From Cliona cf. orientalis (Eukaryota > Porifera > Demospongiae > Clionaida > Clionaidae), in assembly GCA_963930775.1 (NCBI GenBank), contig OZ005691.1:11653000-11716999 (forward strand): a DNA stretch of 64,000 nt, given 5' to 3'. A program made the translations under genes and the position numbers. Positions within the stretch are counted from its first letter, which is position 1, and every line of letters begins with the position of its first letter. The notes beneath the pieces were generated by a model. It made no database searches. It worked only from the letters and a program-made list of their open reading frames with translations, and had not been told where the DNA came from. Positions 12,308-62,983 of this stretch are shown here, piece after piece.

Positions 12308-13677
12308 GTGAGTAGCTATCACATACAATCACTGTACACCATAGTTGCTAACTAGTGATGATGGTAGACTACTTCACCTGCAATGGTACTACGGTAATCA
12401 TGTGCAACAGATATCAATATCGACTGATGTTGTAGAATAGCAAATACATATCATGAATAGAGAACTGTGGATCTTATTAAGTGGCCACTTATACATAAGT
12501 TGAATGTGTACAATCATGCCCAGAACTGTCTCCATCCCATAGATCTCATGATAATATTATTAGCCCCAAATTTTAATGTAAGATTATTATTTTCAATGGT
12601 AGTAGTGTTATAATAAACTGCGCTTTTGACCTTTTGCAAGGGCTACCAAACACCCTTAATAATAATATTAGCTCCAATGTGTTATGGTAATAGAGTGTGC
12701 CTGGGGGCCAGGGGTAGAAGGGACCGCCAATCGGATCACAGATCTATCGTAGTCATAATAAGAGCACCGCAGTACCACAGAAATTTGTCACAACCAATCA
12801 GAACACAGGTTTGAAAGTTTGTTGAATCTTGCCGCCTAGCCAATATACTATTCTGTGACCAATCAGATCCATGATTTGCTCATTGCCAGGCCCTAGCTAC
12901 TGAAGACCAATCAGATTCATGATTACACTATAAACTGTAAAACCTCTAGGAATTGCCAAGCCTCACTACACTGTCTATGAGGAAAGTGCACCAGCTACTT
13001 ATGTAAGCCACTGTTTCCAAGAATCTGCTAAAAATGTAAATCATAGAAGCATGATTACAGAAGTTACTGCCATAGCTAACAATGAATTTCCAAACCAGTC
13101 ATTCACCATTATCTGACTAATATGCCTTTGAGAATTACATTGCGGGGTCTCTACTAAATGTAACGAAAAGAACTATGGCGCCATTGGTCTTAGTCAGGCA
13201 TGCATGCATATGGCTTACAAGGGAAATTGGCCATGATCAATAGGCCAGTAAGCTCATACATATCAGCCCTTGTTTTACCTTGCTCCAAGCCCTTGATATT
13301 GTTTTTCCTGTGAGTAGGTAGCTGGTGATTGTGGTAGACCACTGTGGGTTACTGGGCACTTAATCTACAAGCACCTACAATCACTGGTACTGCCATAGTA
13401 ATGTGTAACAGATGTCACTGGTCTAATAGAACAATGTCATAACAATGGAGAACCATGCACGTGGTGTCCACACCTGCAAGAGAAGCACCTGTTTTTACTA
13501 TGCATTGTTTCTGCTACAAAATTATGCCCTCTTCCATAACTGTAATTAAAGGGGTATCTTCACTAAAGGGGGTGTAGAGAGTTTCCATATTATATTGAAC
13601 TTTCATAACAATATTAATAGTATTGTACACACACATTCACACTTAATGCTTAACTAACTAATATTATTCTTACTCAG
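12308..13677 (+). other. Intron with repeated CCAAT motifs
   Basis: Holds CCAATCGG near 12727 and CCAATCAG at 12793, 12859 and 12907, about 50-65 bases apart and in one orientation. It lies upstream of the giant exon and could be an internal promoter (inference). Otherwise no exon or element recognised. Confidence 0.5.
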
Positions 13678-16284
13678 GCTCAAGACCTCACAATATTACC
13701 ATTCTATCGTCAGAGCAGACGGGATCACCACACTCCCCTACCACACCCACTACACCTCTAGCCACACCCATCACCCCTCTAGCCACACCCACAACCCCTG
13801 TCAACTCCAACCCCCCTTCCCCTATGATGATGAATCGGCTAAAATCTTCACAACGTGGCAGTGTTCCGGGATCTCCAGTTGCTACTCAACCACCTGCACC
13901 ACCACGATCACCTATAGAAAAACCAAAGCGTACCGGGCAAGCTACGCTCAAAGAGATGTTCTCTGCTGAAAGCTTAGCCATTTCACAAGTTGGGCAGCAA
14001 GCCGCACACGCACCTTCCAAGCAAGTCTACGATCAGTCCGTTAGCAAAGAGATGCATGTACTGACCTCTGAGACTTCACAAAGAGTGCAGCAGCAGCCAA
14101 GTCTGTCTATAGCATCCAGTTCAGGTCAACAACTATCAAGTGTACCAACTCAAGCTAGGATTGCAAACAAAACTGCTACTGAACACGCAACCATTACATC
14201 ATCTGCGAGTACTCGTATGTCTGCCTGCTCTGCCAATATGGCTACACAGCAGCATTCTATGCCTTCTAACTCATCCCAGACTCCAGTCACATCGTCTACC
14301 ACTGTGAAATCTGCTTCTACTGCTGAGGCGACACAATCAAAAAGAAATACTTCAGTGGCTAACACGGTGACCGCCCAGCCTCAGGTGGCTAAACAGAGAA
14401 CAAATACTCTAACAGCCACAGCTCTCACTCGCTCTCCTCTCAGACACCAAAAAGCTAGCTCCACAACAAATTCTACAGTCTCTCAGGCTCTTGCAAAACA
14501 ACCACCAAACTCTCAATCTTCAGTTTTAGCTTCTTCTTCAAGTGCAAGTGTGTCGTTTGGCCAACGCAGAAATGGCCCTCAAAGTGCCTCTAGTGTTCCT
14601 GTAGGAACACAGCCATGTAAAGCATCAACTTCACAGCCTCTGTTGCAACAAAGTCAACCTATAATGTCACCAACAGTGGCACAAAATCAACCAAAGTCTT
14701 CGATACCCAATACATCTGTTATCCAAATACAGCAAAATTCCACCAATATGCAGGCAGCAAATGCTCTAGCTTCACAAGCATCGCCACTTCAGCAGATTCC
14801 AGTGATGGTAGGTCTAGAATACCCACCTACTCTTCAGCAGCTACAGACTCTAGCTATGATGGGAGTACAAGTACCAATGTACAACTTACCATTGATCTTA
14901 CAAAATTCCAAACAGCAATCTGTTGCAGGAGGTGGTGTTAGCAACAGCGCTGTATGCAGTCAAGCTGTCCCGATACGGAGTACCGCCAAACAGCCTGAAA
15001 CAGCCAACACTGGTGGTGGGACTATTGCCACAAAAGGTACAGCTCAGTCGAAATCACGTGCACAGCAGAATATCACAGGAGCCAGTTCTAGTGTTCATAT
15101 TTCACCCAATGTGGCAGCATCACTAGGAGCAAAGGGTACAACTTCCACCACTCAAAAATCAAACCAAGCACCAACTGCAAGCATTGCCAGCTCTAATATA
15201 TCCACCCCTGCTTTAGGAGCAACAATGGCACAACCAACTCATGCAAAATCACGTACATCAACTGAGCATACAAAGCTAACCACTTCTATTTCAGAAAAGA
15301 GTGCGAATGTAGGACAGAAAACTCAAGCAAAATCACGAATACCAGCCGAGTGTACAAAGCTAGCCACTTGTACTTCAGAAAAGATAGTGACTGGAGCACA
15401 GAAAATTCCATCCAAGTTGCATACATCAATGGCACATACAAAGAGTAGTCTTCCTACCACTTCAAGCAGTAGCCAAGCTCAAGAAGTGGCCTATCTTTGC
15501 ACCAATACCAATTCAGCTTTGAAGACGGCACCGCCATCATCAGTACGTACAAAGACCTTGCCAGTGAGCTCAAATGATAGTCCAGTTCAGAGAGCCGTAA
15601 ATGCTACAAACACTACTCCAACTTCTTCTAAGACGACTGTTCCAGTGAAAAATGGCGGTAGAACGGCATCAAAACGAGCGGCACAGCCCATGCACTTCAG
15701 TAACACTCCTACGACTAGTGCCAACGCTAGCAGCCTTCAAACTGTCGCTTCATCTCCAATAAGCACAACAAAGCATGCACCTCAAGTGTCTTTGCAATTG
15801 TCAGCAAAGAAATCTCTCAGTTTCAGTAGCAGTGCCACCACAAACTCGAATAGCAGCCACGGTGGCCTTCAAACCACTCCCGCTAGCTCTAGAGTACTGA
15901 GTTCTCCAATTTCATCATCGAAAGGAAAGCTTTCAGCCAAACTTACAAAAACTTCAAATTCTACACTCTCTGATTCAATTGATAGACAAAAGCCTCAAGT
16001 GAATACTGTACAATCACTCCTTTGTACGGTATGCCAGCTTACACCTAGGAACCCACTGCGTTCAGAGTGCTGTGGTGATCTTTACTGCGAGCCATGCTCA
16101 AGAAGGGTGGACAGGTGCCATCTGCATAGATCCACCCAGCTCAGATTCACTAGGGATGTGGAGCTTTTCAACGTGATTCAGAAGCAGGAGACAAAGTGCA
16201 AATATGCTGGGAATGGATGTACGTGGAGAGGGAGAGTGGCCGATCAGAAACATCACATTACTGTGTGCCTGTACAACCCCTCTA

Positions 16285-17529
16285 GTGAGTTGATTGTAAG
16301 GTGTTCAATGTTATTATAATATAATATGGAGACAGAATCTCCTTAATCTGTTATGGAGACCCTATAGCCTAATGATACAGGTATGCAAATCCATCCAAAT
16401 TAAAATTTTCTCAACAGCCTTGAACCATGCAGCTAGCTAGTCTCCCTCTCCCCATTTGTACATACATGTATGCATGTGCAACTTTTCATTGCCCCTCAAG
16501 TGTCAGTATGCAAATTTGAAAAGCTAAGATCAGCAGCCTAAGTTGAGAAGAGGTAGCTATGGCATGTCCTCCCATCAGCTAGGGTACTCTCCTGTCTCAA
16601 ACGTGCCTGTTTACCTAGAGTGCAGTATCTGTGTATCTAGAGTCCTGAGCAAATGATAGTTTCCATAATATAATAATAATATTATAACTATACACACCAA
16701 TAACACCCTCCTAGAATGACTCAATTCCGCTGAAATGTTATGAAGTTAGCTGTGGTATTTCCAATGGTATATAGATTGCTATGTGTAGTCCAGAATGGAA
16801 CTGAACTTTCTAGTCAGCTAGTCAGTGGCCAACAGAGCTGGTAGTAGTACATGGTGTGATCACATGGGTTAGGATAGTAAATCAGTACACATGTACAGTG
16901 TATGTATTCTGTGGTTTGGTTGGCAGTTGGGCCAATCCCTATCATGATAAGGTGGTTGCTATGGATAGTAGCGTGTAAACAGTATCTATGGATGTGCACA
17001 CACAATGTCATGCTTACCTCGTACTTTGTCTCATATAGTCTCAGTTGGCATGCCTGTGCAGCCTTTTAATGTTGCACTGTGTGGATCTGGCTATTTTTAA
17101 CTATCCTGATGCTAGGCTTTAGAGAATATATACAATTAAGTGTTGTGCGTTGCATCAGCTCAGCACACCTGTGAGCTGCAGGGGCCCGGCTGGCTGCTTT
17201 GATGACAACAATATTAATATGACAATACAAGCTAGCAAGCAAGCTCAGCTTTCTCTCTGACATGACACATACCGTATAGCCGGAAAATTTGGTGGGGAAT
17301 TAAATTTGGCTGTTTGGCGGTATATTACAACCGCCAAATTAAAATCCGCCAAAATTTCCTACTCGCATATTATAATACGTATGGCGATCCCGTACCGAAC
17401 CGCCAACTTTAAATCCGCTAATATTCTTCCAATAGGGATTCTGGGCTCAACCGCCAAATTTAATTCCCGCCAATATTTCCGGCTATACGGTAATATTATG
17501 CATGGACGTAATATTAATTATTATTTTAG
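16285..17529 (+). other. Intron of the Ser/Thr-rich gene
   Basis: Contains MITE family C at 17270-17492. Nothing else recognised. Confidence 0.5.
17270..17492. mobile_element. MITE family C, copy 1 (TACCGTATAGCCGGAAA ends)
   Basis: 223 bases with inverted ends TACCGTATAGCCGGAAAAT and ATTTCCGGCTATACGGTA, and inner repeats of GCCAAATT-type sequence. Copies: 24937-25139, 26555-26770 and a truncated one at 38187-38360. Confidence 0.85.
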
Positions 17530-30921: not shown

Positions 30922-33374
30922 ATGGTACTGGGATTAAATGATTTATTAACAGTTCTAGATGAGCTCTATGACATCCGTGACAAGTGGTACTTCCTTGGAC
31001 TGCAGCTGAAAGTACCCACTGAAAAGCTAGAGAGTCTGACATCACATGATCAGGACAGCTGCTTCCGTCAAGTTCTTGTCGACTGGTTGAAATCTGGCAC
31101 GGCCACTTGGCTGGCTCTCTGCCAAGCACTCCGGCACCGCACTGTTGGGCAAGATGAAACGGCAATCAAGTTACAAACAAAATATTCTGCTGGTAAAGTA
31201 TAATAACAGGCTACAGGATAGTTGAAAAAATTTAATAATAGTAGCTAATCATTGACTCTAAACTATTTTTGTTCTACCATATAGTCACACAAAAATAGTT
31301 TAGAGTCAATGAACATGTGTATCTTAACTTGGGTTCAAACAAGGGGGTGGGATCGATGATATTCTAGTATTAATTTTTTTTATAATTACAATGATTAAAT
31401 TTGTATCATTCATAGTGGGAGAGATCGGCAGCCAAACAATACAAAGAGCTGACTCAGATGTGAGCAAAGGACCCTCGAGCTTTGCCGCTACTTCAGCAGC
31501 AGAGTGTAGTAGCAGTGCTCAAGAAAATCAACAGTGTGTCATGGAAGCATCCCTGATGAAGAGCCAACCTGAATCACCAATTGCTAGTGTCAGCAAAAAA
31601 GAAGCCACTACCAGTACCAGTGCCGCTAAGAAGAGACCTTCAGATGCTCCACATCCTTCGATAGTTAAGGTATAGATTTCTACATCTAATTGTTCAGCAT
31701 CATGCATACACATGTTTGCTAAATTCTATTATGATTCACAGAAATCTAAGCGTTCCATCAAATTGCCCGACAGCTTTGCCAAAAAAGATTTCATTAGGAA
31801 ACCCCCTCCTGACCGTCTCTGTGTAAAATGTGATTGCGTCCCATTCAATCCACAACGCTCTGTATGTTGCAAGCGGCTCTACTGTGAACCCTGCTCCAAA
31901 AAGAATAAGCGATGTAGAACGCACAAAGCAGACTTGGAGTATACTTCTGACAAGGAGCTCTATGGCAAGATTCAAAAGCTGAAGATCAGGTGTCCAAATC
32001 GAGCAGGGGAATGTGGCTGGTCTGATACTGTATTCAACTTAAAGAATCACCTTCCAACTTGTGGTAAAAATATAGTATGATATCGTATATATAGTTCAGT
32101 TGCTCATATTCCACACAGAGAGATGAATGATCATAATCCCCTATCCACATATCTATAGGCTAGGCCATACTTATTATGATAAAAAATTATTATACTACAA
32201 TGTATAGCTGCCTAGCTACAGTTTATTGAGTAAGAAAAATCTCATATATTACCGGTATAATGTAGGGGGTGGCGGCCGTACTTCAACAAAAGATAAAGAA
32301 ACGGCAGCAACAGCGTCCTCTAGCCATGCGAATAAGGGAAAGAAAAAAGCAACAATAAATCTTTCAGTCGCAGGTCATAAGGGCCGGGATAGTCTTAGCA
32401 CTGCTGTGCCGGGACTAAAAATTGAAACAAATGGAGCTAAATCTGCAGGTAAGGGACAACACTACTACAAATTCGTAAGCATACATGTGTGCATAATAAT
32501 TATTATGACGGTCACATCGTATACTAAACATAATAGCTTTATTACCATGGAAACCCCACCGTATCAATTATTAATAGTGGCACCACTCCAACCTTTTGTC
32601 TTATAATAATTGTCCAATTAACTTGAAATAATTATACTGGGCAATACTGTGAATAACTCATTTATATTTGTAGCATTCATGATCCCATGGTTGGTATATC
32701 AAACATTCTAAGTCTTGTCACGAACAATAATAATAATAATAATAATAATATAGTCTGCATGTCTCCTAATTAATGCAGACGGCAAGCAAGTGACGATCAC
32801 AGGACCTAGTGACTCACAACAAGGTATTGGTAACACCAGCTGTCCAGAGCGTCCACCTGTCAATATGGTGATGAAACATATCAGTGAATACAAAACATCT
32901 CCTGGCCATGGCAAAACATGGTTAAGTCCAATCTTCCTCAGCCATCAACTTGGATACAAGCTTCGCCTTGCCGTCAGAGTGTCACCACAACCACAGGATG
33001 GAAATCTGCAACTTGAAATTGGAATAGTATCAGCAGGAGCTCAAGAGCACTATCTGAAATTCCCATGTAATGGAGATGCCAACGTGCATATACTAAATCC
33101 ACAGGAAAATGAAGACCACAAGTTTATTTTCGTCAATAATTTTGAGATTAATAATGGTGCATCGGACTATCACAATTTCGCCTCGGTTCCTGAGCGCTAT
33201 GTCCATAAGGACTGTCTTTTCTTCTGTGTGGAAGAGATATACCTTGATGATGATGATTGCAAGATTTGGTTGCTAGATCCTGCAGATCGAGAACCCAAGG
33301 ACTCAGAAGAGGAGTCTGAAGAGTCTGAGGAGTCTGATGAGTCTGAAGGAGATTCTAGTGAGGTAGACGAGTAG
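30922..33374 (+). CDS. Death-RING-TRAF finger-TRAF-C protein with acidic tail
   Basis: Exons 30922-31192, 31416-31669, 31742-32063, 32266-32448 and 32779-33374 give about 541 residues in one frame. The Death domain fills residues 1-90 (KWYFLGLQLKVP; CFRQVLVDWLKSGTATWLAL). A Ser-rich linker precedes the variant RING near residue 190 (CVKCDCVPFNPQRSVCCKR, YCEPC, CRTH) and TRAF finger (CPNRAGECGWSD). After a Lys/Thr linker exon comes the TRAF-C/MATH-like domain from about 365 (FLSHQLGYKLRLAV; LKFPCNGDANVHILNP). The C-terminal 28 residues are almost all Glu, Ser and Asp, a feature the neighbours lack at this length. ATG directly follows a splice acceptor, as in its close paralogues at 34518 and 52643, so a 5' UTR intron is likely. 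Intact. Confidence 0.92.
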
Positions 33375-34329: not shown

Positions 34330-34441
34330 CGCCGCGAGTCATCGGATCATTTTAAATGCGAATGAGTCAGCATAACACCATCGCCCACAATCTTGAATAA
34401 AATTATAGTGAATTTTGAAAGTAGCTAGCCATTGCAAGGAG
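34330..34441 (+). promoter_or_regulatory. Promoter and 5' UTR exon shared with the 52.6-kb gene
   Basis: ACC-CGCCCACAAT and GAATTTTGAAA-TAGCTAGCC, with the UTR donor GTGAGT, are shared with 52490-52577. No TATA box was identified with confidence. Confidence 0.55.
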
Positions 34442-34517
34442 GTGAGTACCAAAAAAGCCTACTGAACTCCTTGTGCATGTTGAATTAAAGCTTTGGACAT
34501 TCACATCAATTCAACAG

Positions 34518-36815
34518 ATGGTGTTAGGAGTCAATGATTTGGTGACGGTTCTGGATGAACTTTACGATGTTCGTGCTAGATGGTACGACATTGGACTGAG
34601 GCTAAATGTGCCTGCTGAGACGTTGGAGAAAATCAAAGCACCTGATGACAACAGTTGCCTTCGTCAAGTTCTCATTATTTGGTTGAGATCAGGAAAGGCT
34701 ACTTGGACCAACCTCTGCCAGGCACTTCGACATCGCACAATTGAACAAGGAAAGCTGGCAGATTCTCTACTAGCTAAATACCACTCAGGTACATATTCTA
34801 TACTTTATATATAATAAAATATTATAATTTATGGTTTGTATAAATCCGATAGCGAGAGAGACAGCTCAGAGTACTAAATCCCAGAGTGCTGGATCAAATA
34901 TTAGTGGGAGAACTTCAGGTGCTGCACGTCCTAGCACTTCAGGGAAAACTAATACCAATCCAACTATGACTCGAGGTCATCATGGCACTGGAGGAACCCC
35001 CAAGAGCAAAGAAAAACCAAGTGCAAGTACAGCAAAGTCGGGAGAAGCTGGTCCAAGCAAAGCCAAAAAGAGACCATTGACATCAGATACTCCTGGCCCT
35101 TCAGCAGCTAAGGTTGGTTGCCGTGGTAACTGAAGTGAAGATTCATAACATTGTTGCATGATAATAATATATAATATTTTCAGAAACCAAAGCAGGCTGC
35201 CTGTAATTTAAAATTGCCCGACAGCTTTGCCAAAGAAGATTTTGTTAGGGCACCCCCTCCTGACCGTCACTGTGTAAAATGTGATCGCGTGCCATTAAAT
35301 CCACAACGCTCTGTATGTTGCAAACGGCTCTACTGCGAACCCTGCTCCAAAAAGAATAAGCGATGTACTAGTAGAACACACAAAGCAGACTTGGAGTACA
35401 CTTCTGACAAGGACCTGTACTACAAGATTCAAAAGCTGAAGATCAAGTGTCCAAATCGAGGAAAGGGCTGTGACTGGTCTGATACTGTACTCAACTTGAA
35501 GAATCATCTGCCAGCTTGTGGTAAAGGAACTATTAGCTATATCATGCAATACATGTATACAGTGTCACACACAAGGGCTTATCGTGCTAAGCACACATCT
35601 ACAGGGGACATATAATGTAGCAATTTCTATTAAAAATAATTTTGGCACACCTATAATTGGAATATATTATGCATGCATATCATGGGAATATTAAGAATTT
35701 GAAAGCACCTATATATGTGGGCAAGATTGACTTATATAATTTAAGCACTATTCATGGGTGCTATGGTATGCTCACTAAACTGTACACGTAATAACTAGAA
35801 ATTTTATGGTATAATTATAGGAGGCCAGGCACAGGGAAAGGGAACAGGGATGCAGAAAACACAGCAGTCAGAAAAATCCGGCAAAGTACATTCCAAGCCG
35901 ACGGAGAGTGGTCCAAACGTTGCCATGACTAATCAGATTAACGTCACTGTTGTTAATGTTGGAGACAAAGACGAGCAGAAGCAAGAGGCTACTGAGGGTG
36001 GCAGTAGCAGTACGAGTCTGAATGGTACCAGCACTGGGAAGGGACACAATCGGCAGGATGAAACAACGCAAGCAGCTAAGCCTACAGGTACTTATTATGT
36101 AACACATACCTAAATCCAAACTAGCAACAGCAGGAGAGTCTGAATAAGTAGCACTGATCACCTCCTTTTGAGAGCCTCTCTAGATTTATACTTACTAGTT
36201 TTTATATCTTCAAGCATATTAAACTCTTCATGATAATTATTAAAATTAATTTTGATTGTATATAATAATGTACTAGATGGAGAAGCACATGGGAGCAGTT
36301 CTACGATGGAAGGTGCCCAGGGAACAAGCACAGCCAGCTGTCTACCACTAAATGTGGTGATGAAGCCTGTTAGCGATTATCAAGCATCCACTGGCAAGAC
36401 CTGGCTCAGCCCCACCTTCCTCAGCCACCAACTTGGATATAAGCTTTGCCTCGCCGTCCGAATACAACCACAAGCTTCCCTCCCCTTCAACGAAAATCTT
36501 CAACTCAATGTTGGGATAGTGTCTGCATCTGAAGATCAGGAGGACTTCCTGAAATTTCCATGTATTGGTGATGCCACAGTGCAAATCTTGAGTCCAGAAA
36601 AGAATCAACGATGCATAGATATTCCCGTCGGTTTCATGATTGGTGATGAACCTGAGAGGTTCACGTACGCTTCAGTTCCGAAAACATACATCCACAGTAA
36701 TTGCCTCTTCTTTCATGTGGTGAAAATAGATTTGGGTGACGAGTATAAGCCGTGGCTGCTCGATCCACACAATGTCATGGAGGTTGATGATTCCATATCA
36801 GTTGATTCTGTGTGA
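34518..36815 (+). CDS. Death-RING-TRAF finger-TRAF-C protein
   Basis: Exons 34518-34788, 34853-35112, 35184-35520, 35821-36087 and 36277-36815 give about 557 residues. The Death domain is residues 1-90 (RWYDIGLRLNVP; CLRQVLIIWLRSGKATWTNL). A Ser/Thr/Lys linker leads to the variant RING near 195 (CVKCDRVPLNPQRSVCCKR, YCEPC; two extra residues give CTSRTH) and a TRAF finger (CPNRGKGCDWSD). A polar linker exon leads to TRAF-C/MATH-like sequence from about 405 (FLSHQLGYKLCLAV; LKFPCIGDATVQILSP). Death, linker and RING exons, introns and 5' UTR are closely similar to those of the gene at 52643, which lacks the TRAF-C half. ATG follows the acceptor CAACAG. Intact; signalling role inferred from the domains. 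Confidence 0.93.
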
Positions 36816-50051: not shown

Positions 50052-50404
50052 ATACTGTTGAATAATATCATTTTGTACTTATCTCTCTCTCTCCTCTCTG
50101 CCTCTCTCCCCCTGACATATCCCTCCCTCTCAATTATAATATTACTACAAATTTAGTTTTTACTCATGCAGTCTTTTCTCTGGCATACCCTTGCATAGAT
50201 CGTTAAAATAATAGTCACTTTAATCAACATGCATGTTGAGAAAAACAAGCCAAGTGATTGAGTGATGAACCATGCATAATGAAGCACTAATAGTGCGAAA
50301 CCCTCGGCTTTCATGAATTTGTTTTAAACTGGTCACTGATTAAGCCTATAATTATGCTTTGATGTAATATATCATTATGCCGAAATGAGAAAAGATCTAT
50401 ATAC
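50052..50404. other. 3' spacer after the 41.3-kb gene
   Basis: CT-rich 3' UTR followed by AT-rich sequence; nothing else recognised. Confidence 0.5.
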
Positions 50405-50845
50405 ATGCCAGTATGCGCTATACCATGCACTAGCCTTTTTTGCACCTATCAATGTATTGCCCCACCTACCCTAGTGCAGGCATATGTGGGGATAGGGTGG
50501 GAATTTGATCGCTACTTTTCAAGTATCAATTATCCCACCCCTGGGGGAAGCTCCTGTAATCAAAAGGCACACCAATCCCATGTACTGCAGGTCCTCAGCT
50601 TGTGCACTGAGGTGCACTATGCTAGACATACAAGTTTACATAACACTCACTTAAGCCACATTAGTGCTAACCAAGGCTACTACTTGAGTTGTCTATCCTC
50701 GGTAGTGAATGGTCAGAATCTCATTTATTCCCTCCCAACCAGTGGTGGGAAAACCCTTGTTGCAGAATTAATTATCTTCAGACAATTGCTGCTAAAAAAT
50801 AAAAATGTACTTTTCATTCTAGTACTAGTGTACGTGTCATGGTGA
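50405..50845 (+). pseudogene. HELQ-like helicase exon fragment
   Basis: Within this frame, [20 protein letters not shown] and the following [13 protein letters not shown] match the Walker A exon of the HELQ branch of superfamily 2 helicases (close to POLQ). Only about 50 residues, from roughly 50680 to 50825, resemble the family. The frame then reaches a stop at 50843 and no further helicase motifs (DEAH, motifs III-VI) are found nearby. A stray or pseudogene exon is the best reading; an exon of a larger gene spread through the transposon-rich spacer is less likely. Confidence 0.6.
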
Positions 50846-51907: not shown

Positions 51908-52642
51908 TTTGCTAGCTATATCTATAGCGCTACACAAGAAAGCCAAGAAGCGTTCAGAGTCTACTGTGATCAGTGATGAGTCAGTCGAGTTATAAGACCT
52001 ATCGTTAGTCCTATATCCTAGTCTTTTGGAAAAGAAGCCATCGCTGTCACTTTTGTCCATCGAGAGTTCGTCAACTTAACTGTAACTTTTGAACAAAGCG
52101 TTTTCAACGAATTCTACACGTTTCATTTGTTAAAATCGCCACGAGAAGCCTAATGATACCTCGCTTTCAACGTATAAATAAGGTATGTAGCAACTAGCCT
52201 GGTAACAGACAGACACACAGTACAGACACACAGAACGACTACCGTAACCCTGCGGCGCATGCGCCGAGGGTTAATAATTATTATTATGGTTCAACAGTGT
52301 ACATTGTACAATGTACCTGGTGCCATGCCACAGATGCAGCGTCGTATATCCGGGCATGCCGGCACTGCACAATTAGTCTCGTGAGCCAGCCCCTCCTAGT
52401 TCTTTGCGCAATTGCGTAGGAGGGGCTGATAGAGACTAGACGACTGTGTACAGTGCTATATATATGCATAGTCATGATTATGACGCGGCGGTGGACATAG
52501 CTGTGTCACATGAAAAAAGCACCACCGCCCACAATAGCGAATTTGAAAATAGCTAGCCGGCATTTGCAAGAATCGAGGTGAGTGCCAGCAAAAACTTACT
52601 GAGCTTCTTGTGCATGATGATTCATGTTAATTCAAATGGCAG
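51908..52642 (+). other. Spacer, promoter and 5' UTR of the chimeric gene
   Basis: Includes GGCGCATGCGCCGAGG near 52252 and a hairpin (AGCCCCTCCTA / TAGGAGGGGCT) at 52386-52428. The 5' UTR exon, related to 34330-34441, ends at 52577 with GTGAGT; its intron is 52578-52642. Confidence 0.55.
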
Positions 52643-55600
52643 ATGGTGTTAGGAGTGAATGATTTGGCGAATGTTCTGGATGAACTTTATGATGCTCGTG
52701 CTAGATGGTACGACATTGGACTGAGGCTAAATGTGCCTGCTGAGACGTTGGAGAAAATCAAAACACCTGATGACAGCAGTTGCCTTCGTCAAGTTCTCAT
52801 TATTTGGTTGAGATCAGGAAAGGCTACTTGGACCGACCTCTGCCAGGCACTTCGACATCGCATAATTGACCAAGGAAAGCTGGCAGATTCTCTACTAGCT
52901 AAATACGTACACCACACAGGTACGTATTCTATACTTTATAATAATATTAATACCGTAGAAACTGGTTGTTAAGCGCTGCTCGCTGTTAAGCGCATACTTT
53001 TTATTAAGCGCATAGTTTTATGCGAGCTTTACCGCTCTTTGTTAGGCGCACATGCCCAGCAAGCCACCTGAACGACGAGCGATCGGTTACACTAGCCCAG
53101 AAAGAAGGCTAGAAGTAGGCTGGAGAAGAAAACGTCGAGAATTACGCTCTCTGGTCGCTCCTTGGCCATCGCTGTAGGCCTTTCTACCCTCGACACGTTC
53201 TTTACGCACGCCCCACCTACCGTGTTTTAGCACTTTTAATTAAGCGCATGCTTCCTGTTAAGCGCATACTTTTTATTAGGCGCATATTTTCTTGCTACCG
53301 CGTGTTATAAGCGCATGCGCTTAACAACCAGTTTCTACGGTACTACATGTATATGATTTATAAATCCGATAGCGAGAGAGATAGCTCAGAGTACTGAATC
53401 CCAGAGTACTGATCCAAGCAAAGCCATAAAGAGACATGAGAGACCATCAACATCAGATACTCCTGCCCCTTCAGCAGCTAAGGTTGGTTACTACGGTATC
53501 TGAAGTGAAGATTAATTATGCATAATACTTTTTCAGAAACCTAAGCAGGCTGCTGATAAATTGCCCGACAGCTTTGCCAAAGATGATTTTATCAGGGCAC
53601 CCCCTGCTGACCGTCTCTGTGTAAAATGTGATCGTGTGCCATTAAATCCACAACGCTCGGTATGTTGCCAGCGGCTCTACTGCGAACCCTGCTCCAAAAA
53701 GAATAAGCGATGTAGAACACACAAAGCAGATCTGGAGTATACTTCTGACAAGGAGCTCTATGGCAAAATTCAAAAGCTGAAGATCAAGTGTCCAAATCGA
53801 GCAGGGGGATGTGACTGGTCCGGTCTTGTGCTCAACTTAAAGAATCACCTTCCAGCTTGTGACAAGCGCCCACTCCTGAGTAAGCACCCATGTACCCCAT
53901 TTCAAGTGATAAATGTAGCAGCTTCTATACAAATGTATGGAATTTTGATCCTGGGTAAGCATCCACACAGGCCAAAATTGCAAGTTATATTTAAGTGTCC
54001 ATAGGAGCTTACCCAGGACACTATACGGTAATACATCTGGTGATCAAGATGTCCATGGGTTGGATAGCAAATAGGGAGTGTACATCACGGACTTTTAGTG
54101 CATTGATCTGAAATTTGGCAAATGGTGATCTGACTAGTCTAGTATAATAATAGCTGCATGTATTAAAATAGCAGAAAACTTCTTTCTCCTCCTGCTATCA
54201 TAATACACGGCCCACCCCCATAAACTACCCTTTACCATTGCAAAATATGATTTGAATATACTATACGAGGAACTTCGCTCGGTTAAAAGATAACATAGAG
54301 CCGGCCAGCATCCATCATTGGTAAGAGGACACATCCACCCATTTCACTTTAAAGCAGCAACAAAATGGTCAATTATTTTTAACTACGAAATAATCGGTCA
54401 TCAAAACCTTTTATAGATCCTTCAGCTGGAGCTTCATTATCATTCACATCCACTACTGCACCAACATTGCGTCCAATACGACAGTTTGCATCCCATTATT
54501 CACAACCCCAACCTGTACCAGGACAAACCTTAGCTCAACCTGTGATCACATCATCACAATCAACATCTATAGGTATACTAAATATAACACCATCAAAACT
54601 GTAGCCTATATTAATTATGCTGCTCATACAGGCCAACAACAGACAACAGTGGCATCATTTCCATCGTACAGAGGTAAATAATTATTTATATTTTCCCTTC
54701 TTATCAAATATACCGTATTACCTCTAATTTTAACGGATACCAGAGAAATAATTATTTTGGCCAATGTTAGAGCATACGAAAATAGCTGGCGTTCGAAGTG
54801 TCCGATGAATTAGAACACGCTTTCACACATGTGCATTCGGTCAAATGGACGTGCGATCGAGCAGCTGCACAGATTGAGAAAATGAGACGGTACCTGGAGC
54901 GCCCTGTTCATAGTGGGAAAGAGAACAACTCGCCTCCTTTAGTACCACCAAAGAAGCAGCAATCCATTGCAAATTTTGCTCGATTACTACCACGCTAGCG
55001 CGAGCTGTCCAATGATGTCCGGATAATTAGAACAGCAAAACTCAAACTTCATTGACTGTCCGGTGTAATTAGAGGTAAAAAAATTTCGAAATGGTGTCCG
55101 GATAATTAGAGATGTCTGTTAAATTAGGGACAATACGGTAAATATTACGCTCGATATAGGTAAATCTGAGGATGAGGTTAAACCACGTGCACGATCATCA
55201 GATGTACTGAGTCCTACTGCTGCTAGCTTATTTTACCCTAGACCAATGCAATGGTACTCTTCTCGTCAATGTAAGTTAATCCTGAAACAGGCATGATAGC
55301 TATATACCTGAGTTGTACATAAGCCTGGGTTTCTATTTCCTTAATTCTTGGCTTTCAAGACCCGGCTTCAAAATTTGACCAGTGTTTTTTATGCAGTGCT
55401 ATGCTGGCTCCTGGCCGCATGTGTGCACGCAACTCTGCATGGGCCATATTGTACATAATAATATTATAATATCAGCAGCCTCTTTATTATACAGTCGAGT
55501 CTCCGAACAAAGGACACTTTGGGAACGGGACCTCTTGTCCTTTGCTCGGAGGTTGTCCCTATCTCGGAGGTTCATGATTTTTCAACCCATTTTGATTATA

Positions 55601-58600
55601 TTATCCTTAACAAGTTAGTAAATGCACTGAAATACAAGATATAAGCAGTAGAGATGATAATCAAGTGGTTGGTGTGTTATCAACATAGCACAGGCTGAAT
55701 TTTTTTTGTTTCTGAAGTACTGGCTACTCTAAAATGATTCAAGGCTAATATTATTATCGCGCATGCAGCATAATATCGCGACCGCCTAGATTGCTGCAAA
55801 GGTGGGCGTGGCATTGTTAATTTAAGGGCGTGGTTTCCGGATGTCCGCTATTTAGAGGCAGTTTTGCGTTGAAAAGTCACGTTGGGAGCTTGGATCTTGT
55901 CCGCTGTCCGGAATCGAGAAGCGTCCGCTTCTCGGAGGTTGCTAATGTACTATAACTATGCTAAATTCAATCGGTAACACGGCACTTGTCCGCTTCTCGG
56001 AGGGTCTGTTATCGGAGGCTCGACTGTATTATGCATATACAATACAAATATTATACTTACTATATGTACATACCTTAGGGCTACGATTATTTGCAGGTAC
56101 AAATCTTAGCGGATTTTGGAAATAGTGCATCTAGTGGGTACTCATTTTAGCGATTTTTATTCTATTTATTCGAAAATGTTAAAAATTTTAATATTCACGG
56201 GTACAAATATAATCGGACAAATCACTAATTTTGCTAAATTTAATACCTGCAAACAAAAGTGTCCTTAAGGTATGTTGTACATACAAGCAGGGGAGCTTGC
56301 TTCACTCGCCCCCTTGCCCCCTGCTAAATGTGATTATTGTATTTGTATTTTGTTGCTTGATTAACTATAATGTATGATGGGATTATTGGGGTGAGCCCCA
56401 CACAAATGATTTTAATTGAGATTTCCATTTATTGGGGTGAGCCTGAGCGAGCCCCACATATTAAAACAGTTCATCAATGTATGCAATATTATATGTATGT
56501 ATGGTGGTTGTACCATAGATCAATAATCATAGAGTCGGTAGACTCTCTATAAGTAGGGATGGCCTGGATCTGCCATAATATGTAATACATTACAAATACC
56601 CATATATCTCAAAATTGGTAATTTTGTGAAATTTCTAAGTGTGAAAATCGGAATCTCCAGCAAATTATCTATCTAATAAGACCAAGATCATCCATCAATT
56701 CAATTTGTATATGCCAGAACCAGATGTTCAAAAAAATGGCCATTAATTTTGTCAATCTTTCTTTCTTTCTTTCTAGTTTCCAGGGCTAGCTCGAGATTGC
56801 CTTGACCTCTCATCTTAGTTTAAGTATAAATCCATTCCATTTAGTAGTGCGCAGTGCAGTGGCACGCTAATATCGTGTTATCTTGATAGTTACGTAATAG
56901 TGGGTGTGTGCGGTGCATTGACAATAATTGGGCGTATCTGATACGCCATTTTGTGATCTAATGCGCATGCTCAGAATGTGTTGCCATGGTGAAGTCATGT
57001 GACAGCACCCTGGCCCTCGAGGCCTCAGCGATTGCCTAGCCCTAGCGCTAGTATTCTAGCGCTCTGCTGGATCGATCAAGGATATGAAAGCGCAAGGCTC
57101 GAGGAACGGCAAGGCGCTAGTCATAAGCGAACTACTCGCTAGCATGTGTAGCGCTAGTGATCCGCTGGATAGATCATGGATATGAAGCCTTCGCAAGGTT
57201 CGAGGAGCTCAGCGGTAACGTACAGATTAGCTGCTGCCAACAATAAAAATTTAGAACTAGGTTTTCTCCCTAAACAAAAGAGTCTCATTGCTACATCGAT
57301 ATCGGCCGCCTAACGCTGCCTTCTTTGTCAACCTCCTCAAAGGCATAGGAATGCAAGCCTTCAACTAGGGGCATGGCTAAGAATTTTGCGCAGATATGAT
57401 CTTCATTCTTCTACACTGGAATATTGACAGCGAATCATATTCTGAGAGCAATAAAAAAGAACAGAAACAAGTATAAAAACAATTGAATAAAATTGAATGA
57501 TGAAGTAGGGATGGCAGGATCAAAAAGTACATGAACAAGATTTGTAGGGATAACACATCCACTATACATCCCTACACTTGCTTTTTGAGGGGTGCAAGAA
57601 CAGTAATATCTTCCATATGCAAGTCAAGAGTGCTTAACAAACAAGTTAGGTGCATGATAATCGAGAAAAGCAAGTATAGGGATGTATAGTGGATGTGATT
57701 ATCCCTACAAATCTTGTTCATATACTTTTTGATCCTGCCATCCCTACTTCATCCTTCAATTTTATTCAATTGTTTTTATACTTATTTTATTATTATAGAT
57801 CACATAGACATTATGTAGTCTATATGATTTATAATGGTACATCCATCATTCGCGCGTAATTAAGTATCTACTCTATGGACTTGGACATCAAGATATCTTG
57901 ACTTCTATACCACCTACTGATGTGAAACTTGCACCAAAGTGGCTATTTTCACAAGTGCTACAATATGACAATGACATACCGTGTTTATGCTAATAGAACG
58001 CATGATCCAATTACCGCAAGAAAATTCAATTCCAGGATTTTTTTGTATTCTATTAGAACGGAAGCGACTGTCTGTAATTATTTTCTATGAATCCAATTAG
58101 CGCAATAGTGCTAAGGTGAGGCTATTGCGCATGCTCAAACCGCGTGCTGCACGGTTAAACCACACCCGCTTAGTAATGAACCGTTCTGGAAGCCTTGCTC
58201 TGTCTCTCGGACTCGTTGCTAGCTGTAGTTAACCAAATCGCAAGTGTCGTTCGTCGTTCATGAGGGTACTAAACTACACTCGAGACTGACCTTAGTTGGA
58301 ACTGCACTGCGATCAGCACGATCGCTAACCATTCGGCGCGGCTGTCAGAAGGCCTTTCTCAGGCTACCCTCGTGATGATCGGGGCCAGGGGCACAGGTAC
58401 GATACCATCGATAGCCACTATTCGTCGTCGCTCAAAGCTATGCTAATTGTTCTATTACAACGCAACATCTAATTAACGCAAGAAAATTCACTTCCTGGAA
58501 TTATTTTGACTCTAATTGTGCGCAAACCAGATTTGAAATTATTTTTTTTGCTTGCGTTCTATTAGCATAAACACGGTAGTTGCCAAGTGTCCCGGTTTGG

Positions 58601-61600
58601 CCGAGACAGTCCCGGAATTTGGCCCTATGTCCCGGTTGTGTCCCGATTTTGCAGCATTGTCCCGGAATCCAGCTCGATTGTACAAATGGAGGTGTGGCAC
58701 AAGCATAAACTCAGCATATTATCGAGATTCAGTCCGTATATCTCGATGTTTAGTGGGTGTGGCAGTACATAATCGCCCGAAAGTGGGTGTGGTCATCCAA
58801 AAGTGGGCGTGGCCCCTAAAATTTCGCGCGTGCTTTGCGCGCATTAATTTTATTATGTTTTCTACTGTACTGTGTCCCGGTTTCTCCTCTTATAAACTTG
58901 GCAACTATGCAATGAGTTTTCTGGGGGGGGGGGGGGGGGTACAGGAGAAAATCTGAAAATAAAAACACTTACTCCTTGTTTTAAAAAGGTATTCTTTTCA
59001 TTGAGAGGTATATTTTTCCCTTGCATATCCCCTATGGTGTTAGAGAAATAAAATATCTGAAAAATTTCTGACAGGAAGACCCCCTTAAGGTTACGGGATA
59101 GTGTTCCGCCCACGCATGGTCAAAGTTCACATGAATAATAAATGAGACAGTTATATTCCAGTTTTTGTCCACATTCTTTGCACAGTCAAGGCACAAGTAA
59201 GTAGCTCTCCTGATGCCTGCCCCATGGTCCACAAAAACGAAAAGCAAACCTGCCACAGTCTGTCTGCAAGCGCGGGTAATTATTGCAATTTTCTGCATAA
59301 GTTTTTGCCAAGGTAAACAGCCTCTATGTATTGACATACATTACGAATCTCTACAGGGCCAAGTATAGCGTTTGAGCTCTGTCGAGTTACACGAACAGAA
59401 AACGAACACAAAAACTTACTGCTCAGCTGCCATGTGACTCGCTTAATGGCGGCTCTCCAGGACAAAACCTTGTCTGATGATTCACCATCTTAGAGTTTTC
59501 GAAAAAGCGCTATACTTGGCCCTGCTCCGATCGATGGACTAGCGTAAACGACAGCGAAGTCAGTTCGTTCGAGTCTCTGGTCTTCAAAACTTGACGCAGA
59601 AATTCAGACAATGTCATTTGTTTACTTCTGGAAATGATCGACATTCGTTCACGTTTCTGACTAAACCGCATCAAAATATACGTGAACTGTGTCCGTGCAC
59701 AATCATTTATAAATTGCGCGTCAAATACTATCCCGTAACCTTAACCGGGTACTACTATCGCTAGTCCCACTTCATTAGTAATTCATTTTATGCTGTACTA
59801 TATCTCCCATGTAATCTGTTCCAGATCCGTTTGAATTTAAGCCAGCTGCGCAGGCAATGGGAATTGCAAGTGACAAACCAGTATCATATGCAGCTCCAAC
59901 AATATACAATCCATTCTCAGTATCATCAATGACACTTCAAGCAAACGGTTAGCTCATCAACTTATAGGTTAAGCTCAAGTTGTATCAGGGATTCGGGACC
60001 ATAGGCCCTTTAACATTTTGGCAATAAGGAAAGCATCTATCATCAGCTACCCACCCACCCCCCACCCCCTCCCCCCTCCAATGTACATTGTATTTCTTAC
60101 CCTATCTGTTATCTAAATTTCTGGATCAGTGCCTGATAATGTCTCAAACTTACAGAAATTCGAGGTGTCGACATGGTAACATCAACAACAGTGGTGATCA
60201 CTGACAAAAGGGAAAGTTTCACGTGGAAAGGATATGGTCTAAAGCTGCACATATTGGATAAGTGTCTTCCAATGGGTATAACTCAGTGCAAGATCACCAT
60301 TATGGTCTCCATAGCTGGCCAATATGACTTTCCAGAGAACTGTCACCCTGTGAGTGCCATCTTCTGGCTTCGATGTGAACCACTGTGTATTTTTGTAAAG
60401 CCAGTGACAATAGAAATGGACCATTGTGCTAAACGAGAAAATACCTCAAAGCTGTGCTTTGTGAAAGCTTATTGCAGCCAAATGGACCTCCCTTACACCT
60501 TCAAAAAGTTAAAAGAAGGTGTATTCAATCAGCATACCTCTTATGGTGTTGTGGAGCTTCATAGTTTCTCTGGAGTTAGTGTGGTTCAGGAAGACTCGGC
60601 AGAAATTGAAAGAGAGTACTGTGGAATGCTTTTCTACATTGGAAAAACTGTTTTTAGTCATAACTTTCACATTCATTTTGTGGTGACTTGGGATACACAA
60701 GCGCACCTTTCTGTGAGTCACAGTAGTTCAATCTGTAGTATAGGAAATTGTAGCCTAATAATTGTAGCTATGATAATAGTACTGACAGGATCTTACTTAT
60801 TAGTAATGAACTTAATTTACATGATCCAATGTACCCCCGGTCTTTTGATTATTAATTATTTTTGTCGTTCTCAGACCCCTTTAATTTTCATCATCGGCCT
60901 ACCCTATGATCACCCCTCTGGTAGACAGCACTATAATGTTATGCCTATAAAACTTAATATTAGCAATGGCCAATAATTGATCATCTACGGATGCCATTGT
61001 CATGCATCATGCATTCATTCCTGCTGATGCACTCTTAAACGATATTCTCCATGCAGGTGGTAAACAAAGAGTACCAAAAGAAGCAAGCTCAAGCTGGCCA
61101 CAGTCAGCCAATAGAGTTTGAATCAGAACAGATTGAACTGGATATTCCCATTACAGGAGTTACTTCAGGAGGCTTGACAATAGATCCACTGTATTCACCA
61201 GTTGTAAGAGATATTAATAATTATTATTATGCTGAAAAAATAATTATGGCTATGCACCCTCAGATAATTAAAAAGAAGGTTGATAATTTTCAGCCTGGTA
61301 AAATGATCCCAAAGTGTGAGCTAAATGTCTCATTCACATGGTCTGAGCCTCCTCTAAGGTACTGTGTTAAGCTCCTGGGTGCTAAGAAACCTTATAACAT
61401 GTTCAATATCATACCTTCAACTACTACAACCATCAGTACAGAGATAAGAGGTATATATTACTGTAGCTATATTATTTGTATACCGTACCCTCGCAAAAGA
61501 GGGCCCACTATAATATCGGCCCACCCCCCACTTGGGGCTCAATTTCCTGCTAAGGTCTAGTGTTTACTCGAATATGCGCCCATATGTAGCTGCCCTTGAA

Positions 61601-62983
61601 AACCCAGCTCAAATGGCTGGTTTATAAAGACTGAACTTGAATAATCTATGTAAAATCTATACGTAACGTGCTAAACAGCCGTAAAACTAAGCCTGGCAGG
61701 CTTTATGCCACGTTTCAGCACAAATAAACGATCGTACACAGCTAGCGATCGTAGCCACACCCACTTGATACGGCTGCACTCAACAACATACAGTGAAGTA
61801 TCGCGGCTGCCCTTGCTCTGGATTGGTAACCGTGCTTGAATAAGGCGGAAATCAATAGTAGCCGCTGCTACTATCAAAAGTATGATGCTAGTGTGGGTAA
61901 CTTACCTGGGCGCTCTTTCATAATATAATATTATAAACGTGGTACTGATACCTCGAATATCACCCCATCTCCCAATCTTGCTCTGATCTTGCCCTAATGT
62001 AAGGTGCACCGCCCATGGGCCCTCTTTGCGAGGGTACGGTATAATAATAATATAATAGACAATGAATATTAATACTTAGTCTAGTGTGTACAGTTCATTA
62101 TGTTTTCATGTAGCTATTAAGTTGGTTATTACTTTTACCCCGTGCACATGTGCAAGAAGTAAAGTAATTGATTGCACTGTTGTCGTCGTGAGCACAAAAA
62201 TCACCATAATAATTATTATAGGCACCTGAGGGACTCATAAGCACAATAAATCCATTGAATTTGGCGAAAAACTGGCTTCAGTGTGCTTCAACTAGCAGTT
62301 GTATACCATCTCTATAGCTATAAATCGCTCAATGTGCGTGCTGGAGAAAATAAGTTAATTTTGCCACCTGCTCCCATATTATTATAAATTATCTCACAAT
62401 AATAATATTATTCTGTCCCATGACATTGACAGTGTTTGTGAAGATAGGTGATTTGTACCTCATTGATAAAAATTTTATTTTCCATATTATTGAATATACA
62501 AAGGTAAACTAAGTTGGGTTTGGCAAAAATTTTTGTCATGCAAAGCAGTTCGTACTGCATGTGGAATCCATAAAATATAGCTGGACTTAAGCAATCTTTT
62601 ATTGTATGCAAAGCAGTTCATATTATGGGAATCCGTGGTGCAATATCAGTGTATTTTATTTGATTCTCACAGAACCTGCGATTACAAATAATGAGAAGCC
62701 AAAGCTCAAGGATCTTCTGACAGAGCTCCTGACAAAAGTGGCAAGCAATTGGGAAAATATTGGTATCATGCTCGACATAGAAGAAGGACAGTTGAACAGT
62801 ATAAAAGCTGACCAAGGCAGCAATAGTTCAAGTTGTCTGAGGGAAATGTTACGAATCTGGCTCACTCAAGTTGAACCTTCGGCGCCGACTTGGCTAGCAA
62901 TGGCCAAAGCTATTGAGAGGGCTGGTGATCCTGGATTAGCTAGGGATTTGAAAGCAAAGTATTGCAGGACCAATGCACAGTAA
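52643..62983 (+). CDS. Chimeric Death-RING-TRAF finger-ZU5-UPA-Death protein
   Basis: Exons 52643-52919, 53373-53482, 53537-53879, 54417-54572, 54632-54673, 55160-55270, 59825-59947, 60156-60712, 61057-61203, 61264-61450 and 62673-62983 join in one frame to about 787 residues. Residues 1-92 are Death (RWYDIGLRLNVP); about 147-240 are the variant RING (CVKCDRVPLNPQRSVCCQR, YCEPC, CRTH) and TRAF finger. Four short phase-1 exons rich in Ser, Pro, Thr and Gln follow. ZU5 starts near 400 (FTWKGYGLKLHI), then a UPA-like region, then a second Death domain from about 690 (NWENIGIML; CLREMLRIWL). The first three exons are near copies of those at 34518; similarity stops at the old donor (GCTTGTG), and a new donor lies at 53880 (CTGA then GTAAGC). 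If that donor is unused, the frame runs on to a stop at 54004, giving a short Death-RING protein and leaving the ZU5 part as a separate gene. Phase arithmetic favours one gene. Confidence 0.72.
52951..53342. mobile_element. TIR element in the first intron of the chimeric gene
   Basis: 392 bases with inverted ends TACCGTAGAAACTGGTTGTT and AACAACCAGTTTCTACGGTA, and internal repeats of TTAAGCGCAT. The corresponding intron at 34789-34852 has the same flanks without the element. Confidence 0.92.
54711..55140. mobile_element. TA-type element with a 66-codon frame
   Basis: Ends TACCGTATTACCTCTAATTT and AAATTAGGGACAATACGGTA. Repeated GTCCGGATAATTAGA segments lie near the right end. The internal frame 54798-54998 encodes a basic peptide with QQSIANFARLL; it may be a transposase remnant or captured coding sequence. 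Confidence 0.8.
55490..56028. mobile_element. TIR element with TACAGTCGAGTCTCCGA ends
   Basis: Inverted ends TACAGTCGAGTCTCCGA and TCGGAGGCTCGACTGTA bound about 540 bases with repeated TTGTCC-GC-TCTCGGAGG segments. Confidence 0.88.
57440..57790. mobile_element. Foldback element with about 120-base arms
   Basis: TATAAAAACAATTGAATAAA and CATCCCTAC-type sequence on the left are mirrored on the right by TTTATTCAATTGTTTTTATA. A solo right arm lies at 8510-8600, directly before the ZU5 exon of the first gene. Confidence 0.82.
57977..58578. mobile_element. TA-type TIR element, 602 bases
   Basis: Ends TACCGTGTTTATGCTAATAG and CTATTAGCATAAACACGGTA are perfect inverted repeats. The interior repeats ATTCTATTAGAACG-like sequence. 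No transposase frame seen. Confidence 0.9.
59085..59744. mobile_element. TTAA-flanked TIR element
   Basis: TTAA then GGTTACGGGATAGT at the left, ACTATCCCGTAACC then TTAA at the right. TTAA target sites are typical of piggyBac-like elements (inference); no transposase was recognised inside. Confidence 0.85.
61204..61263 (+). other. 60-base intron that stays open in frame
   Basis: GTAAGAG...CCTCAG, 60 bases without a stop. Called an intron because removal joins SPV to IIKKKVDN, matching the IKKEMVDN exon start at 9669 of the first gene. Retention would add 20 residues in frame. Confidence 0.75.
61481..62041. mobile_element. TIR element with TACCGTACCCTCGCAAA ends
   Basis: 561 bases with inverted ends TACCGTACCCTCGCAAAAGA and CTCTTTGCGAGGGTACGGTA; GAGGGCCCA and its mirror TGGGCCCTC follow inside. 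Confidence 0.9.
62133..62345. mobile_element. MITE family B, diverged partial copy
   Basis: TTTTACCCCGTGCACATGTG at the left, then the GGCGAAAAACTGGCTTCAGT block shared with 6680-7096. Confidence 0.6.

Follow-up and report, generated by a model that had tools for sequence, protein, structure and literature searches.

A predicted chimeric gene in the sponge Cliona cf. orientalis joining a Death-RING-zinc finger 5' half to a ZU5-UPA-Death 3' half

Introduction

In well-studied animals, TRAF-type modules and ZU5-UPA-Death modules belong to separate proteins of Death-domain pathways, and in UNC5 and PIDD the ZU5-UPA portion regulates the Death domain. Lineage-specific mixing of Death-type domains has been described in sponges and NACHT-ZU5 genes in early-diverging animals, hence the kind of event considered here is already known: Amphimedon is reported to have 357 TRADD-N proteins, up to half of them with unique architectures, with UPA-ZU5 fusions in another TRADD-N clade (PMC8195603), and NACHT-ZU5 genes are reported from early-diverging animals (PMC12909245). 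The combination of a RING-TRAF zinc finger with ZU5-UPA-Death was not found among the papers listed in searches of open-licence literature for such domain combinations, nor in passages of PMC8195603, PMC12909245, PMC4772301 and PMC3210808.

Here we consider a stretch of 64,000 nucleotides (nt) from Cliona cf. orientalis (C3:11653000-11716999, "the window", whose coordinates are used throughout unless C3 is given), set against searches of 217 Mb of genome. The locus of interest, A (52643-62983), places a Death-RING-zinc finger 5' half before a ZU5-UPA-Death 3' half; its exons are named E1-E10, its sister copy B, and a second join C. Locus A is probably one chimeric gene, predicted to consist of a duplicated Death-RING 5' half joined within a repeat to a ZU5-UPA-Death 3' half.

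Results

With exon boundaries placed from splice motifs and reading of the sequence, locus A is modelled as 10 exons (Table 1) of 2424 nt including the stop, with GT-AG at all introns and a single open frame of 807 amino acids (aa). The original prediction had described a chimera of these two halves with a substitute donor in phase and all later exons in one frame, and this reading is supported. E4, E5, E6 and E7 are each of phase 1-1. If coding, E4 and E5 depend on an exon further upstream, because both lack an ATG in frame and a stop in the reading frame stands 39 nt ahead of the first complete E4 codon. Taken alone, the phase match would arise by chance one time in three.

The RING-zinc finger tandem array around the locus counts 26 RING-exon matches among those listed (C3:11549897-11729339), and the usual gene order within it is Death, RING plus zinc finger, MATH. 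The sequence identity between the 5' half of A and this family is beyond chance: 52534-52946 is 87.1% identical to 34405-34816, bases upstream of the ATG included, and 53439-53861 is 84.5% identical to 35069-35520, while the RING part (53558-53861) is nearest to the gene at 31760-32063 (90.8%), closer than to the 34.5k gene. The claim that E1-E3, their introns and the 5' untranslated region are close copies of 34518-35520 thus stands for these blocks and the upstream bases, and needs correcting for exon 2 (110 nt in A vs. 260 nt in the 34.5k gene) and for intron 1, which holds an insert of about 400 bases (52953-53350). This insert has inverted ends and, not being present in B, is probably younger than the A-B duplication. 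No MATH sequence was found between 53.5k and 63k by tblastn with the 36.3k MATH exon as query (E up to 1e-3).

The exon end up to 53861 is common to A and four close Death-RING neighbours (34.5k, 31.7k, C3:11611k and C3:11618k), directly after which the four read GTAAAG or GTAAAA and A reads ACAAGCGCCC. The donor of A at 53880, CTGA/GTAAGC (the slash marks the splice point), keeps phase 1 as had been predicted, at a distance of 18 bases past the old exon end rather than 13, and a second donor-like site of phase 1 follows at 53955, likewise inside a repeat. A genome search with 53840-54420 returned A, B and at least 38 other places matching only about query positions 22-200. Alignment of 18 of the 38 places outlines a repeat of about 185 bases with inverted ends, the left end like TACCGTAGTGTCCCGGG and the right near the complement of the left; short length, terminal inverted ends and copy number are those of a miniature inverted-repeat transposable element (MITE). 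In both A and B the left end is short by about 17 nt, and at the donor the family consensus is CGG/GTAAGC vs. CTGA/GTAAGC in A. Judged from the sequence, the two halves meet within the left end of this MITE-like repeat, which supplies the putative new donor. We also weighed a simple insertion of the repeat into the old intron, which is disfavoured by the missing 17 nt or so in A and B and by a blastn comparison of A with the array, where no parental intron sequence was found to follow the repeat; both findings agree better with a breakpoint within the repeat itself.

Copy B lies 77 kb from A (C3:11628.6-11636.0k, model 11628734-11635905), and the two are about 86-98% alike in blocks that take in the sequence ahead of exon 1, the repeat, the join and the 3' flank. 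Since B also has the join, the donor and the linker, the join predates the A-B duplication, and the earlier view of a chimera at its birth is not supported. B has no counterpart of 60053-61678, a deletion of 1.6 kb that comprises the ZU5 and UPA exons. Its frame nonetheless stays open where exon 7 now leads into the last Death exon, because both are of phase 1, and the predicted form is an in-frame Death-RING-zinc finger-linker-Death. A and B differ at 7 of 534 sites in intron 3 and at 17 of 195 in E4 and E5; E6 is rearranged between them (58 differences over 105 sites vs. the second exon-6-like exon of B). Net exon indels between the copies are all multiples of 3 (9 in E2, 3 and 12 in E4, 3 in E5), a property of 11 of the 36 indels outside exons; in the indel program the gaps of 9 and 12 came out as several smaller ones and a 5-base gap was set at the stop codon, exon 10 being gapless in a separate alignment. 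The divergence of E4 and E5 appeared raised against the flanking introns (15 of 617, p = 4e-4) but not against introns 4-6 (27 of 285, p = 0.87), so it was not taken as a selection signal.

Locus C follows just downstream of A (C3:11716936-11722530, about 63937-69531 in window numbering). Its model, open throughout, consists of an ATG, a RING-zinc finger exon (phase 1) leading into an exon-7-like exon (phase 1), ZU5, UPA and a Death exon, with the stop within the same Death domain. Its RING-zinc finger exon is 46% identical to that of A and 90% to the RING exons at C3:11639006 and C3:11729037, and its ZU5 is 90% identical to that of A. The 5' part matches the start of one neighbour (C3:11636043-11636358) and, after it, RING exons belonging to the next (C3:11638629-11639511); the similarity of the 3' part to A and B sets in at intron 6. 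As the 5' parts of A and C differ and their 3' ends match, two different RING halves stand before one ZU5-UPA-Death end, and the array has made RING-to-ZU5 joins at least twice, once in A/B and once in C. On the B side both of these neighbours are present and C is absent, the layout expected if C arose, as we infer, where the units of an A-side tandem duplication meet. Exon c4, a remnant of the linker exon of the neighbour, was excluded from the C model, whose frame it breaks.

The domain assignments differ in strength along the protein. Death 1 falls just under the Pfam cut-off and the C-terminal Death 2 above it. The RING exon of A has no Pfam match; for RING plus first zinc finger (RING-ZnF1) a confident TRAF6-like fold was predicted by AlphaFold2 (AF2) from 8 window sequences, with a predicted local distance difference test score (pLDDT) of 87.3. 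In fold comparison TRAF6 and TRAF2 were among the top rows, alongside LNX and RAG1, and the sequence profile was weak (TRAF6, E = 0.035). By this model A has the RING followed by a TRAF-type zinc finger that marks the TRAF family. The ZU5 of A itself scored 13.2 bits vs. a Pfam cut-off of 21 and had no match at E 0.1 in the Pfam search of aligned members; on the level of the family ZU5 is recognized, 11 of the 14 aligned members matching Pfam ZU5 (best 3e-7). Searched by sequence against PDB, the ZU5 profile found no ZU5 structure, and the exon folded by itself gave low confidence (pLDDT 36.8). The UPA assignment (61060-61449, without Pfam match) comes from position and from recurrence after ZU5 in other loci.

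Table 1. Features of locus A and of two relatives of its 5' parent (window coordinates)
Feature	Position	Strand	Basis or remark
Segment 5' of ATG	52534..52642	+	Copied from Death-RING-MATH gene; 52534-52946 87% identical to 34405-34816
E1, Death domain 1, start codon	52643..52919	+	Gene model; Pfam Death 22.2 bits, cut-off 22.6
Intron 1 insert	52953..53350	+	Gap in A-B alignment, junction bases; not in B or the 34.5k gene
E2, linker	53373..53482	+	Gene model; exceeds the exon of copy B by 9 nt
E3, RING + TRAF-type zinc finger	53537..53879	+	Final 18 nt past old exon end
MITE-like repeat without about 17 nt of left end	53863..54030	+	Edges approximate, taken from alignment
E4, linker, phase 1-1, no in-frame ATG	54417..54572	+	Gene model; genome matches in A and B only
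E5, linker, phase 1-1, no in-frame ATG	54632..54673	+	Gene model
E6, linker, phase 1-1	55160..55270	+	Gene model; top codon score among E4-E7
E7, linker, phase 1-1, ATG 59857 as rival start	59825..59947	+	Counterparts in B and C
E8, ZU5	60156..60712	+	Alignment of 14 members; Pfam ZU5 in 11/14
E9, UPA-position domain	61057..61450	+	Place after ZU5; like stretches behind ZU5 elsewhere; no Pfam match
E10, Death domain 2 + stop	62673..62983	+	Pfam Death 26.0 bits, cut-off 22.6
Close relative of 5' parent: Death, RING-zinc finger, MATH exons	34518..36815	+	
Second close relative of 5' parent, RING exon 90.8%	30922..33374	+	

The ZU5 exon has at least 115 genome matches, and 93 of those listed, A and C included, have E < 4e-26. 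Outside C3 the listed matches are at most 58% identical over the full length, or 61% for a single partial copy that holds a stop, and none of them was seen directly behind a same-strand RING-zinc finger exon, in tables read by eye with 150 of 292 RING candidates scored. A Death-like match lies downstream at some ZU5 loci, among the 14 of 30 that were readable on the + strand. C11 8.9-9.4 Mb and C7 1.1-3.2 Mb carry extensive ZU5 exon clusters, the exons being followed by UPA-like and at times Death-like stretches; one open frame there has an N-terminus that appears coiled-coil-like by eye. The 807-aa model had no match among 7387 candidates scored from 5.8 billion proteins, a result of little weight given that animal proteins may be under-represented among those searched.

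Other features of the array were also recorded. Directly upstream of a Death-RING gene, 8626-10878 holds ZU5 (in two stretches), UPA-like and Death-like sequences in this order. A single open frame of 885 aa (13662-16319, without Pfam match) ends in a C-terminal RING-zinc finger of the array family, and its paired copy at C3:11594721-11597366 is S/T/Q-rich. The open frame at 50363-50842, beside a MATH-like exon, weakly resembles a DEAD helicase (22.5 bits, cut-off 26). A long inverted repeat occupies 57465-57787 in intron 6 of A, with related pieces at other places in the array.

Discussion

The course of events that we propose starts with the duplication, within the tandem array, of exons 1-3 of a Death-RING-zinc finger-MATH gene together with the sequence ahead of them. 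This piece would then have been joined, inside the left end of the MITE-like repeat, to sequence 5' of a ZU5-UPA-Death half, homology being seen on both sides. The old donor would have been lost at the join, and the repeat-borne site, visible in the sequence, may restore splicing in the same phase. The resulting protein would carry a TRAF-like RING-ZnF1 flanked by two Death domains, with ZU5-UPA-Death in place of MATH. The Death domains might recruit it to oligomeric signalling assemblies, ZU5-UPA could hold or release the second Death domain, and the RING-zinc finger could act as output, by dimerising or by recruiting ubiquitin enzymes.

The single-gene reading draws on the frame, open across all 10 exons of A, and on B, which keeps the join, the donor, the phases and an open frame after losing ZU5-UPA. 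The need of E4 and E5, if coding, for an exon before them, the exon indels in multiples of 3, the in-phase model of C, the TRAF6-like fold, the family-level ZU5 matches and the lack of a MATH match point the same way. Its chief competitor, which we consider unlikely, is that of two separate genes: a truncated Death-RING gene, followed by an independent ZU5-UPA-Death gene. With neither the 53880 nor the 53955 donor used, the frame does run open to a stop at 54004, as anticipated (284 aa). Two in-frame ATGs, 59857 within E7 and 60173 within the ZU5 exon, are candidate starts for the second of these genes; B and C likewise have an in-frame ATG early in E7, and the first part of E7 has diverged in C. 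Such an arrangement, however, leaves without explanation E4-E6, open and phase-matched in A and B, and requires a chance phase match in each of A, B and C. The poly(A) signals, of which one (ATTAAA, 54162) lies between the halves and several (AATAAA) lie in intron 6, give no decision between one gene and two. Several further observations weigh against a single gene. A standalone parent of the 3' half was not found: close relatives apart from the join exist for the 5' half, and the only close copies of the 3' half, B and C, sit behind RING halves. E4 has genome matches only in A and B, the donors of E3 and E7 agree with 5 of 9 consensus bases, the exon indel test comprises four events, and the ZU5 form cannot come from copy B. 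Codon scores of E4, E5 and E7 are ordinary among open non-coding windows (fractions 0.17, 0.42 and 0.27), those of E2 and E6 being better (0.011 and 0.021).

The ratio of non-synonymous to synonymous substitution rates (dN/dS) bears on the improbable case of a non-functional relic, that is, rearranged pieces open by accident. In no segment tested is it significantly below 1 between A and B (5' half 0.60, p = 0.135; E4-E7 0.76, p = 0.28; E4-E5 1.41, p = 0.66), the A-C value for UPA is 0.75 (p = 0.76), and all changes in the last Death exon are non-synonymous, 3 between A and B and 4 between A and C, results that also count against one working gene. The rearranged E6 and the 1.6 kb deletion that took ZU5-UPA from B would suit a relic as well, but 807 stop-free codons, GT-AG everywhere and an open frame in B would not, nor would the dN/dS of 0.45 for ZU5 between A and C (p = 0.044). 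Measured against the 34.5k gene, A has a ratio of 0.43 (p = 0.002) and B one of 0.35 (p = 0.0001), much of that history predating the join. An assembly artefact or uncollapsed allele is very improbable: blocks of A, B and C about 80-98% alike are a setting prone to assembler error, yet the three are set apart by separate indels, the private insert of A and the deletion of B, all three are on one 12 Mb contig, and the RING copies left of the window pair with window copies at offsets of about 69-77 kb.

If A is one gene, as we favour, domain shuffling in innate-immune-type genes can be followed here with its breakpoints readable, from the parental 5' half, the repeat at the join, the replacement donor and the in-frame linker to a sister copy with later in-frame loss of the middle domains and a second, different join adjoining. 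If expressed, A would unite a ubiquitin-ligase module of TRAF type and a ZU5-UPA-Death module in one protein. More tentatively, the array may be a site of recurrent fusion, at which repeat-borne donors and the junctions of tandem duplications have time and again exchanged the MATH tail of TRAF-like genes for a ZU5-UPA-Death tail; this would imply a lineage-specific class of Death-domain-gated RING proteins, with ZU5 in A, without it in B, and with another RING half in C.

Compared with the TRAF family (TRAF6, TRAF2), A is predicted to share the RING and TRAF-type zinc finger, but it lacks MATH and has an N-terminal Death domain, with ZU5-UPA-Death standing where MATH would be. In TRAF6 the isoleucine of CxIC contacts the ubiquitin-conjugating enzyme; this position is a lysine in the CVKC of A, so that ligase activity of the RING module appears doubtful. 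With the UNC5/PIDD/ankyrin module A has in common the order ZU5, UPA-position domain, Death, and differs from it by the RING-zinc finger and additional Death domain in front. PIDD is described as having an HF/S autocleavage motif (PMC3210808), while at the site of the HF/S or SF/S of PIDD/NLRP1-type autoprocessing ZU5 domains, a place matched by eye, A reads HFV and a serine occurs in 0 of the 14 aligned members; self-cleavage at the end of ZU5 is therefore unlikely. The Death-RING-zinc finger-MATH genes of the array itself have exons 1-3 and the region just upstream in common with A, but, as predicted from exon order, go on to a MATH tail after the RING exon.

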